Assembly: GCA_040757115.1 (NCBI GenBank)
Contig: JBFLYA010000204.1
Coordinates: 1-6,717 of the forward strand
Length of the DNA: 6,717 nt
Direction: 5' to 3'
From: a bacterium
GTDB lineage: Bacteria > UBA9089 > CG2-30-40-21 > SBAY01
Shown here: piece after piece, positions 2,168-6,717 of the stretch
Position numbering within the stretch: position 1 is the first letter of the stretch
Layout: each line of letters opens with the position of its first letter
Translations under genes and position numbers: made by a program
The notes under the pieces: model-generated
Databases searched by the model: none
Told to the model about the DNA's origin: nothing
Seen by the model: the letters and a program-made list of their open reading frames with translations, nothing else

Positions 2168-2644
2168 TTATATATGGTCAAGGAGATTAGCCGCTGGAGA
2201 CTCAGGTGAAGTTCTTACTTCAAGTTCAATTCCATAATTAGCGGCTAATTGACGACATACCTGCATTTCTTCATCATTCATTGAAATAGAAGGAAATAAC
2301 TGTTTTCTGTCCGGTGTAAATTTCATTCCTCCGACATTTATATTTTTAATAGAGACACCCTCCTGGACTAATTGCAGGGCATCTTTCGGATTAGAAATAA
2401 GTAATATGGTAGGAAGTATGTCAAATTGTCCTTTTTTGATTAAGTCAGCGGCTTCATTGATAGTGAGAATAAATATCTTTATTTCATCTGGGGTAGCTAT
2501 CCTCATTAATTTCTTTTGAGGTTCATTTTTAGCGACTTTATCGTTGGCAACTACGATTTGTTTGCACCTTAATGCCCTTGCCCAGCCGATGATGACTAAG
2601 CCATGAATAAATCTATCATCAATTCGAATTAAATCTATAGCCAT
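2168..2644 (-). CDS. PTS system mannose-family EIIB component
   Basis: The 158-residue protein is a complete EIIB domain of the mannose-fructose-sorbose PTS family. It opens with MAIDLIRIDDRFIHGLV, matching the family signature RIDDRLIHGQV, so His14 is the expected phospho-accepting residue. The later NVGGMKF segment (about 103-109) and the closing ELEVRTSPES are also typical. EIIB takes phosphate from EIIA and normally passes it to a sugar bound by EIIC/EIID. Its gene begins 30 bp after the EIIA gene, as a separate protein rather than the EIIAB fusion of E. coli ManX. The ribosome site is weak: only AAGATAA lies near the ATG, and the AGGGA further up is too distant, so expression may depend on coupling to EIIA translation. 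The start is fixed by the family N-terminus. No EIIC or EIID gene lies beside it. Confidence 0.93.
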   Translation of the reverse strand: MAIDLIRIDDRFIHGLVIIGWARALRCKQIVVANDKVAKNEPQKKLMRIATPDEIKIFILTINEAADLIKKGQFDILPTILLISNPKDALQLVQEGVSIKNINVGGMKFTPDRKQLFPSISMNDEEMQVCRQLAANYGIELEVRTSPESPAANLLDHI

Positions 2645-2674
2645 GATAATTATCTTAGAATAATATTCCCTATT

Positions 2675-3079
2675 TTATTCTTTTTTCCCCTTCAATAGTT
2701 CTCTCAGACTTACAATATCTTTTCTTGATGATTCTTTGGCTTTTTTAACTGCCTGGTGTAAATCTAAATCTTGATGAGACATAAGACTGATAATCATCGG
2801 TAAATTTACTCCACAAATTACCTCAATTCCTTTTTGTTCAAGAAACTCACCAGCTACTTTTGAACAACTACCGTGAAGTAAATCTGTTAATAGGACTACA
2901 CCATCTCCTTTATCTACTTTTTTAATGGCATTTGAAATTTTGTTAGATAAATCATCCAATCCTTCACTCGGGAAAAAAGAGACGATTTCTAAATTTTCCT
3001 TTTTAAGCCCTATCCATTGTCCAGTCTCAACAAGTTTAGCCCCTAATTCACCATGTGTAACAATAACTATTCCAATCAT
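2675..3079 (-). CDS. PTS system mannose-family EIIA component
   Basis: The 134-residue protein matches a free-standing mannose-type EIIA domain. It begins MIGIVIVTHGELG, so His9 corresponds to the phosphorylated His10 of E. coli ManX. Asp66 in LLTDLLHGSCS occupies the position of the conserved Asp in the VDTWGGSP loop, with His-Gly in place of Gly-Gly. GVNLPMI (90-96) matches GVNIPML. EIIA accepts phosphate from HPr-His-P and gives it to EIIB in the cytoplasm. GAAGGA (3088-3093) lies 8 nt before the ATG and supports the start. The gene starts 20 bp after the two-helix membrane protein gene. Free EIIA/EIIB pairs without EIIC/EIID may regulate rather than transport; the neighbourhood suggests this but does not prove it. 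Confidence 0.93.
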   Translation of the reverse strand: MIGIVIVTHGELGAKLVETGQWIGLKKENLEIVSFFPSEGLDDLSNKISNAIKKVDKGDGVVLLTDLLHGSCSKVAGEFLEQKGIEVICGVNLPMIISLMSHQDLDLHQAVKKAKESSRKDIVSLRELLKGKKE

Positions 3080-3675: not shown

Positions 3676-4944
<1,269 letters not shown>

Positions 4945-4945
4945 T

Positions 4946-4957
4946 TATTGGTTAAAT
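4946..4957. repeat. Left 12-bp flanking direct repeat (target duplication)
   Basis: tattggttaaat here is identical to 5245-5256 on the other side of the MITE-like element, and the match stops at both ends of the 12 bases. This fits a target-site duplication. It lies three bases beyond the ahcY ribosome site. Confidence 0.65.
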
Positions 4958-5000
4958 TAGAGTTCTGCAAAACCAGGAAACTGTAGTTTTTAAGCGGGTA

Positions 5001-5057
5001 TTCAAAAAGCAAAATGCAAAAAGCAAATATAAAAATTACATATCAAAATGTAAAATT
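5001..5057. repeat. 57-bp dispersed module, copy 1 (partner 6661-6717)
   Basis: Positions 5001-5057 match 6661-6717 at 55 of 57 bases, and 5008-5057 is identical to 6668-6717 for 50 bases. The module consists of AAAATGCAAAAAGC-type units. The second copy has no TTCTGCAAAA end on its visible side, so this module appears to be a separate dispersed sequence nested in the insertion. The two copies bracket metK as direct repeats 1660 bp apart. Confidence 0.9.
5026..5054 (-). promoter_or_regulatory. Candidate promoter in module copy 1, facing ahcY
   Basis: On the minus strand TTTACA (5049-5054) is followed after exactly 17 bases by TATATT (5026-5031). Each hexamer differs from the sigma70 consensus at one position. 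Transcription would start near 5019, about 87 bases before the ahcY ATG. Such matches arise easily in AT-rich DNA, so this is a candidate only. Confidence 0.4.
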
Positions 5058-5172
5058 ATCTCTTTCCTTTCAGCGTTAAAATACTTGAAGCAAAGATATT
5101 ACCAAATTCCTCCAACTCTTTGAAAAACTATGCTACTTCCTTTTTGAAATTTGATTTGTAATTTTGCATTTT

Positions 5173-5207
5173 GATATTTGATATTTGATATTTAATATTT
5201 AATATTT
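5173..5207. repeat. 7-bp tandem repeat, five units
   Basis: Three gatattt units are followed by two aatattt units with perfect 7-bp phase, and then a partial ATTT. The tract lies in the right half of the insertion next to one arm of its inner inverted repeat. It probably grew by slippage, and copy number may vary between strains. Confidence 0.65.
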
Positions 5208-5244
5208 ATTTGTTGTCTCCCACAAATCCTATTTTGCAGAACCC

Positions 5245-5256
5245 TATTGGTTAAAT
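5245..5256. repeat. Right 12-bp flanking direct repeat (target duplication)
   Basis: This is the exact copy of 4946-4957. Here it forms part of a small palindrome, ATTGGT-TAAAT-ACCAAT (5246-5262), that overlaps the last base of the metK stop codon. The insertion therefore seems to have targeted a hairpin at the 3' end of metK. Confidence 0.65.
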
Positions 5257-5261
5257 ACCAA

Positions 5262-6401
5262 TTACACCTTATTCTTCAACAATTCAACCTTATCTGTTTT
5301 TTCCCAGGTGAATTCTTCTTCTTCTCGACCAAAATGTCCATAAGCCGCTGTTTTACAATAAATTGGTCTAAGAAGATTTAGATGATTGATTATCCCTTTC
5401 GGAGTAAGTGGAAAGACCTCTCTGATTAATTTTACTAATTTTTCATCTTCAATTTTTCCGCTACCGTAGGTATTAACCATAATGGATACCGGGTCAGCGA
5501 CACCGATAGCATAGGATAATTGAACTTCACATGCACAGGCTAATTCTGCGGCAACGATATTTTTGGCGATGTATCGTGCCATATAGCATGCGGAGCGGTC
5601 AACCTTGGTTGGGTCTTTACCTGAAAAACAACCACCACCATGTCTTCCCCAACCACCATAGGTATCGACCATTATTTTTCTGCCAGTAAGTCCTGTATCT
5701 CCTACCGGACCTCCAATCTCAAATCTCCCTGTTGGATTGATAAAAAACTTAGTTTGCTTATCCAGAAAATCAGCCTGAATAGTTTTTTTAATTACCTCCT
5801 CAATCACTCCTTCTCGAATATTTTCTATGGTTGCTTCTGGGTGATGTTGGGCAGATATAATCACCGTATCTATCCTTGCTGGTTGCCCATTTTTATATTC
5901 TACGGTTACCTGGGATTTTCCATCAGGTCTCAGAAAATCAAGAATTCCTCTTTTGCGGACATACGCTAATCGCTTAACTAATTTGTGGGCTAACATAATA
6001 GGTAATGGCATCAATTCTTGAGTTTCATTTATGGCATAGCCAAACATCATTCCCTGGTCACCAGCCCCTTCTTTATCCACACCTAAGGCAATATCTGCGG
6101 ATTGTTCGTTAATACAGGTTAATATTGCACAATCTTGATAATCAAATCCATAGTCAGGAACAGTATATCCTGTGGATTTAATTACTTCCCTTGCTACCTT
6201 AGGTATTTCTACATAACAATCAGTGGTAATCTCACCGGCAACTAAAACTAAACCCATTCCGACTAATACTTCACACGCTACCCTTCCTTTTGGGTCATTG
6301 GCTAAAATTGCATCCAAAACTCCATCTGATATTTGGTCGGCAATTTTATCCGGATGCCCTTCTGTTACAGATTCAGAAGTAAATAAAAAGTTTTTTCCCA
6401 T
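5262..6401 (-). CDS. metK: S-adenosylmethionine synthetase
   Basis: The 379-residue protein is a full-length methionine adenosyltransferase, which makes SAM from methionine and ATP with release of phosphate and diphosphate. The N-terminal [20 protein letters not shown] holds the catalytic His16 and Asp18. [11 protein letters not shown] (112-122) is the family signature near the mobile active-site loop, and this loop is shorter than in E. coli. [18 protein letters not shown] (about 218-235) and [25 protein letters not shown] (about 246-270) supply phosphate- and metal-binding residues. The second signature reads GGGCFSGKD, with Cys258 where E. coli has Ala. The protein ends with [22 protein letters not shown], as expected. 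Nine cysteines is a fairly high number. The AGGAGG at 6414-6419 is 12 nt before the ATG, somewhat far, but the N-terminus fits the family exactly. It is first of the minus-strand genes and feeds the methyl cycle with ahcY. Confidence 0.97.
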
Positions 6402-6583: not shown

Positions 6584-6660
6584 GATTAACAAATCGGTGG
6601 TGTCTGAAAATAACTCTAATAGTGAAATCTATGCAGATTTGGTGTCCAAAAGGGATTTCC

Positions 6661-6717
6661 TCCAAAGAGCAAAATGCAAAAAGCAAATATAAAAATTACA
6701 TATCAAAATGTAAAATT
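6661..6717. repeat. 57-bp dispersed module, copy 2 (partner 5001-5057)
   Basis: This copy runs to the window edge and matches copy 1 at 55 of 57 positions, so the true repeat may be longer. It has the same orientation as copy 1. On its left there is no sequence matching the inverted end of the 4958-5244 element. Confidence 0.9.
6686..6714 (-). promoter_or_regulatory. Candidate promoter in module copy 2, facing metK
   Basis: The TTTACA-17-TATATT arrangement of copy 1 is repeated exactly, with TTTACA at 6709-6714 and TATATT at 6686-6691. It points toward metK from about 280 bases upstream of the ATG. The evidence is sequence resemblance only, in AT-rich DNA. Confidence 0.3.

Follow-up and report, generated by a model that had tools for sequence, protein, structure and literature searches.

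The spacer between metK and ahcY in a 4.3-Mb draft genome contains a 289-bp insertion that, judging from its sequence, is a MITE-type, non-autonomous DNA element belonging to a multicopy family. The members of this family are placed non-randomly relative to ribosome-binding sites, with one particular end, denoted L, typically located about 15 nt from the Shine-Dalgarno (SD) sequence of the next gene. The metK-ahcY copy derives by internal deletion from a longer parent that encodes a protein of the S23/IVP family. The main interest of this DNA beyond its initial annotation, which had recognized a MITE-like insertion, lies in this placement rule and in the intervening-sequence-protein parent.

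The window, that is, the whole stretch of DNA analyzed (6,717 nucleotides), is the entire contig C204 of this genome. Both genes are encoded on the minus strand, and the spacer between them contains an AT-rich insert. An Rfam covariance-model scan of the window yielded zero matches. Elsewhere in the window (2168-3079), there are genes for mannose-type PTS IIB and IIA; IIC and IID are absent from the contig. The features relevant here are as follows.

3676-4932, minus strand: ahcY, adenosylhomocysteinase (TIGR00936, 649.6 bits)
4937-4942, minus strand: SD sequence AGGAGG of ahcY, 15 nt from the L end of the element
4948-4957: target-site duplication TTGGTTAAAT, ahcY side, exact 10-bp repeat of 5247-5256
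4958-5246, minus strand: mobile element, 289 bp; transcribed sense from the R end to the L end, same strand as metK and ahcY
4958-4972, plus strand: L terminal inverted repeat TAGAGTTCTGCAAAA, facing the ahcY ribosome-binding site
5056-5138, minus strand: remnant, 3' end of the PF05635 gene up to the TAA stop, gene middle deleted (from alignment with the 584-bp parent at locus L441)
5139-5169, minus strand: remnant, start of the same PF05635 gene, ATGCAAAATTACAAATCAAATTTCAAAAAGG (identical to the start of the L441 ORF up to the deletion point)
5232-5246, minus strand: R terminal inverted repeat TAGGGTTCTGCAAAA, facing metK
5247-5256: target-site duplication TTGGTTAAAT, metK side
5262-6401, minus strand: metK, methionine adenosyltransferase (TIGR01034, 596.3 bits)

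Boundaries, copy number, and empty sites

The initial annotation described inverted ends and exact 12-bp direct repeats enclosing a 287-bp element (4958-5244). Both kinds of repeats are present at the positions given, namely, the exact direct repeat TATTGGTTAAAT at 4946-4957 and 5245-5256 and the inverted ends at 4958-4972 and 5232-5246 (93% complementary), and the left edge of the element stands, but the other boundaries shift slightly. The outer TA is part of the inverted end (...CCCTA), so the element extends to 5246 and the target-site duplication is 10 bp long, not 12. These TAG...CTA limits and the usual duplication of ~10 bp were fixed by copies elsewhere together with clean empty sites. 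Across the family, the ends are 15-bp inverted repeats of the form TAG(A/G)GTTCTGCAAAA.

The end word RGTTCTGCAAAA occurs 137 times (58 + 79) in this genome, with 0 occurrences of the reversed word used as a control, 16 times in a genome of the same genus (G001), and 0-7 times in the rest of the 21 genomes compared. The 287-bp query detected ~40 scored relatives in the genome, with unrelated flanks. Among ~70 fetched loci, which do not comprise every copy in the genome, 27 full copies of 258-496 bp were delimited, and for 24 of these, a script identified a duplication of 8-13 bp, mostly ~10 bp and in some cases with one mismatch. The copies consist of conserved ends (~45 bp at R and ~65 bp at L) and a variable middle with simple tandem repeats. 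Neither the copies nor their parent (see below) contain a transposase gene. One insertion is common to both species of the genus (L133 and L137), so the family predates the species split and later expanded in this genome. The exact R-end sequence is absent from a collection of 84,980 species genomes and from viral contigs, a set that may exclude the genome of the window and its near relatives.

Most BLAST copies (46-287) were considered as simple copies of the element and turned out instead to belong to a second family (GGTGGTGTCT...AGACACCACC, 330-620 bp, 8-bp duplication) that has taken up the right portion of a metK-ahcY-type element; they were left out of the placement counts. The left part of a member of this second family occupies positions 6596-6717 of the window, and the contig ends inside it.

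The metK-ahcY junction of G001 lacks the element and contains ATTTAACCAA once, along with one degenerate copy and two small indels. Cleaner empty sites were found in G001 at three other loci: an exact one with a single AGGAATAAAA (L163) and two that are almost exact (L183 and the second L175 insertion). The multicopy end word, the empty junction in the same genus, and these three sites together argue for a MITE-type insertion. Thus, the empty site in a related genome and the further copies with the same ends that the initial annotation suggested seeking were both found, and the non-autonomous transposition it proposed is borne out by the multicopy family, coincident ends, duplications, and empty sites.

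The residual metK-ahcY gap of 30 bp, which the initial annotation obtained by removing the element and one direct repeat, is arithmetically correct. The actual empty spacer in the same genus is ~57 bp because one extra palindromic unit is present, and the spacers at this junction in relatives range from 12 to ~980 nt. The notion that the insertion split an ancestral operon is an overstatement that is not demonstrated: metK and ahcY are still adjacent and co-directional, the ahcY SD is intact, and no intrinsic terminator was found inside the element.

A parent element encoding a four-helix-bundle protein

In the longer copies of the element, the transcribed strand carries a decayed reading frame. 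A search for PF05635 identified 26 genes in this genome and none in 14 control genomes, and two of these genes are located inside the ends of the present family (L441 and L442). L441 is a complete element of 584 bp (TAGGGTTCTGC...TTTTGCACAACCCTA) with an 8-bp duplication, GGTACCAA, located 14 nt before AGGAGG. It holds a single intact ORF of 123 aa, with matches to PF05635 (67 bits), TIGR02436 (“four helix bundle protein,” 82 bits), and the solved chain 2rld. L442, a second parent copy truncated by the end of its contig, shows 6 synonymous and 3 replacement differences. The alignment between the window copy and the parent runs from one end to the other, apart from two missing segments, namely, the central part of the gene and a stretch close to the L end; the window copy is therefore an internal-deletion derivative of the parent. 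A possible leader peptide that reads outward through the L end (GGAGGAAATTGATAAAAATA...) was also examined, but the window copy has lost the stretch in question.

Inverted arms of at least 12 bp within 140 nt bracket 19 of 25 PF05635 genes, compared to 4 of 137 control ORFs, and these arms often consist of simple repeats. At six loci (L428, L433, L440, L443, L448, and L452), the PF05635 gene lacks TAGRG ends, yet an SD and a co-directional gene are located close behind. Several PF05635 genes are inside two other inverted-end families. One of these, a third and very abundant family with inverted ends GTAACTATTCACCACGAAGG...CTTCGTGGTGAATAGTTAC, is represented in the window at 188-399 and contains a PF05635 gene or remnant in L430, L434-L437, and L445; in a fourth, CTAGTGCTCTGTCGCTACTCAA ends surround a PF05635 gene in elements of 700-800 bp (L446, L447, and L451). 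At L428, L431, L432, L440, L443, L448, and L452, the gene lies in long inverted arms, with a different short tandem unit in each case, and most of these genes are found directly before an SD, in sense. The same simple-repeat-arm architecture is seen in the window at 435-543, a hairpin of simple units (AATATTGAATATCGAATGTAGAATG / CATTCTACATTCGATATT).

The initial annotation also suggested looking for an insertion sequence (IS) with matching ends. None was found, and the source of the element is instead the element coding for the four-helix-bundle protein. No transposase bearing these ends was detected in 19 draft genomes of the phylum, in which the assemblies break in repeats, and unpaired ends in several genomes, inspected for an enclosed transposase, flanked nothing but host genes and, in one case, a nested IS110-like insertion. 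An ORF similar to IS110-type transposases (FIGLDVDKK) splits one copy of the element at L164 (contig C21, ~27,850), at a point ~110 bp from the L end. The enzyme may reside in unassembled repeats, may have been lost, or may be of an unexpected kind.

IS4-type insertion sequences generate duplications of 10-13 bp and encode a DDE transposase. The duplication length (~10 bp) and short ends of the present family would suit an enzyme of this kind, which makes it a real possibility, albeit one to which we assign somewhat less than an even chance, that these are ordinary MITEs derived from an IS4-type element and that the four-helix-bundle gene is an accidental passenger. The elements in sister genera that share only terminal inverted repeats (TIRs) and have unrelated interiors are compatible with this scenario, as is the presence of four-helix-bundle genes in at least two other TIR families, suggesting that such genes may be moved as cargo. 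However, none of the 11 PF01609 (DDE_Tnp_1) loci is flanked by these ends, and no ISAs1-type (PF13808) gene is present in the genome. Furthermore, SD-anchored placement is, to our knowledge, unusual among IS elements, and no report of it was found in the partially covered open-access literature.

Placement relative to Shine-Dalgarno sequences

When L ends are read outward from the inner sequence GTTCTGCAAAACYARGAAACTGTAG, TCTA is followed, after ~15 nt, by AGGAGG and a start codon. Under a strict script, an SD with a gene reading away was detected at 31 of 44 distinct L ends and at 0 of 38 distinct R ends (Fisher P = 1.5e-12; 2% background for any or random positions); some of the ~13 L ends that miss this test do so merely through annotation. 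Of these 31 SD-adjacent L ends, 27 lie at a distance of 12-16 nt from the SD. For copies with a co-directional upstream gene, this distance has a median of 15 nt and a standard deviation of 3.4 nt, whereas the distance from the stop codon to the R end has a median of 33 nt and a standard deviation of 32.5 nt. An L end-to-SD distance of 12-18 nt was observed in 17 of 19 cases; uniform placement would produce 2.3, and the observed count was never reached in 100,000 trials. Orientation is biased as well, with 21 of the 27 full copies flanked by two genes that read from R to L and 1 in the reverse arrangement. The metK-ahcY copy obeys the rule.

Sister genera contain elements with TAGAGTTCTGCAAAATG / TAGACTTCTGCAAAATG ends, unrelated hairpin interiors, and 9-11 bp duplications, and for sister elements with TAGACTTC ends, the SD bias is weak or absent. 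In the sister set, SD-adjacent ends account for 5 of 10 TAGAG/TAGGG ends (G at position 5) and 6 of 54 TAGAC ends. Hence, the SD rule is strongest in the genus of the window and may be tied to a single type of end. In genome G003 (L359-L397), TAGACTTCTGCAAAATG elements have expanded separately; their hairpin interiors are unrelated, their duplications measure 9-11 bp, and some of them occupy palindromic sites such as AAGGGGGAAT/ATTCCCCCTT.

The pattern suggests targeting as opposed to selection. Under selection alone, the element would insert randomly into AT-rich spacers in both orientations, and only the copies that spare the SD and are harmlessly oriented would survive. Insertions into coding sequences are indeed expected to be lost, the sense and antisense strands fold differently, and a one-directional promoter or terminator could eliminate half of the insertions, although no terminator was found in the element. 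Such a process predicts a minimum distance to the SD but not the tight maximum that is apparent from the two standard deviations, and other hairpin repeats at the same loci and in the same spacers, to which the same constraint applies, lack the pattern (ends near an SD in 10 of 158 cases for GTAAC..TTCA, 4 of 68 for GGTGGTGTCT, and 1 of 12 for CTAGTGCTCTG). For these two reasons, we rank selection alone below the targeting scenario and consider it unlikely.

The hairpin target envisaged in the initial annotation applies to some of the sites only. Several insertions lie in the GGTAATTGG/CCAATTACC palindromic repeat and others outside it, and the feature they have in common is an SD ~15 nt away. 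It has to be considered that the palindromic GGTAATTGGTTAAATGGTTACC repeat is itself the target and ends before SDs, so that SD proximity would be indirect; in favor of this view, the window site lies in such a sequence, as do roughly one-third of the other sites. This explanation is improbable given that the same SD distance is found at sites lacking this repeat, namely, AGGAATAAAA, ATGGACAATT, CAACCTTAAC, TTCACTTAAT, and AGTTAGTAAA, and the palindrome was accordingly ruled out as the common denominator of the targets. Palindromic GGTAATTGGTTAAATGGTTACCAATTACC repeats fill many spacers up to the SD and often serve as targets (L073, L020, and L398-L414). The idea that the element is not mobile at all, but rather a conserved spacer or a recombination product, has nothing but the missing transposase in its favor and is refuted by the empty sites as well as the duplications and unrelated flanks, so that its probability is negligible.

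Proposed mechanism and relationship to known elements

The scenario that we consider quite probable as a whole combines a MITE-type deletion derivative, SD-anchored placement, an enzyme acting in trans, and an RNA hairpin between cistrons. The element originated by internal deletion of the 584-bp parent, which consists of inverted ends, hairpin-forming arms, and one S23/IVP-family gene. An enzyme of the cut-and-paste type, acting in trans on the TAGRGTTCTGCAAAA ends, would recognize these ends together with an asymmetric target near the ribosome-binding site and place the element asymmetrically relative to that site. In the operon message, the element would fold as a single long hairpin that stops immediately ahead of the next ribosome-binding site, separating the cistrons at the RNA level with neither coding sequence touched, similarly to a ribosomal RNA intervening sequence (IVS), and we propose that it is tolerated for this reason. 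The role of such a hairpin spacer in the mRNA is consistent with the predicted fold of the window element (-68.4 kcal/mol, z -4.7) and with the better folding of the transcribed strand than of the antisense strand in 24 of 27 copies, a non-independent comparison given that the copies are related. The four-helix-bundle protein could itself have a role in the element.

The closest parallel is the IVS of 23S rRNA. In Coxiella burnetii, the IVS is a selfish element with an S23p ORF that is excised by RNase III, with short tandem repeats before the ORF and deletions in the ORF; IVS mobility has been argued since about 1990, and older proposals regard IVSs as transposition remnants or as mobile elements in which the ORF serves mobility (PMC4990558). 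The elements described here share with the 23S rRNA IVS the PF05635 family (intact in the parent, decayed in the window copy), the inverted-arm hairpin, tandem repeats by the ORF, a deletion-prone ORF, and location within transcribed RNA. They differ in that they occupy not a 23S rRNA gene but mRNA spacers of many operons, the metK-ahcY spacer and other spacers of protein-coding genes, and in target duplication and multicopy spread.

Among MITEs, Chunjie of Geobacter uraniireducens is likewise short and multicopy, with inverted ends, direct repeats, and size variants, and according to the title of a paper cited in PMC10969869, one copy is located in an operon “without disturbing the operon structure.” The present family differs from it in that the parent codes for a four-helix-bundle protein, and the text of that 2024 review of prokaryotic MITEs describes no SD-anchored, one-orientation placement, with no mention of Shine-Dalgarno, ribosome, or orientation (PMC10969869). 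BrickBuilt of Porphyromonas gingivalis is similar as a MITE with a hypervariable internal tandem repeat, but neither a four-helix-bundle gene nor SD placement is reported in the part of the source available (PMC4596501). REP/REPIN, ERIC, and Correia-type repeats are also non-coding, hairpin-forming, and intergenic, whereas the elements described here have a different 15-bp end sequence, 8-13 bp duplications, and a protein-coding parent. IS4-type insertion sequences share the duplication length, but no transposase with these ends was found. No reports of SD-anchored MITEs or of TIR elements with this protein were found in the open-access literature, which is weak evidence of novelty because that coverage is partial.

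A broader and rather doubtful proposal is that S23/IVP proteins serve in the mobility or targeting of a wide range of hairpin elements, all of which would insert at transcribed sites in contact with the ribosome, namely, the ribosome-binding-site leaders of mRNAs in the present case and 23S rRNA in the known IVSs. Intact copies would then mobilize the metK-ahcY element, as a deleted member of this class, in trans. The parent also connects the S23/four-helix-bundle family, to which no function is assigned, with elements for which inverted ends, target duplications, and empty sites are documented. Placement of a mobile element at a near-fixed distance from ribosome-binding sites and in a single orientation would constitute a new rule of target choice, as well as a natural route into operons that does little damage. 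The question of IVS mobility becomes testable here, with intact and deleted copies as well as empty sites available within one genus.
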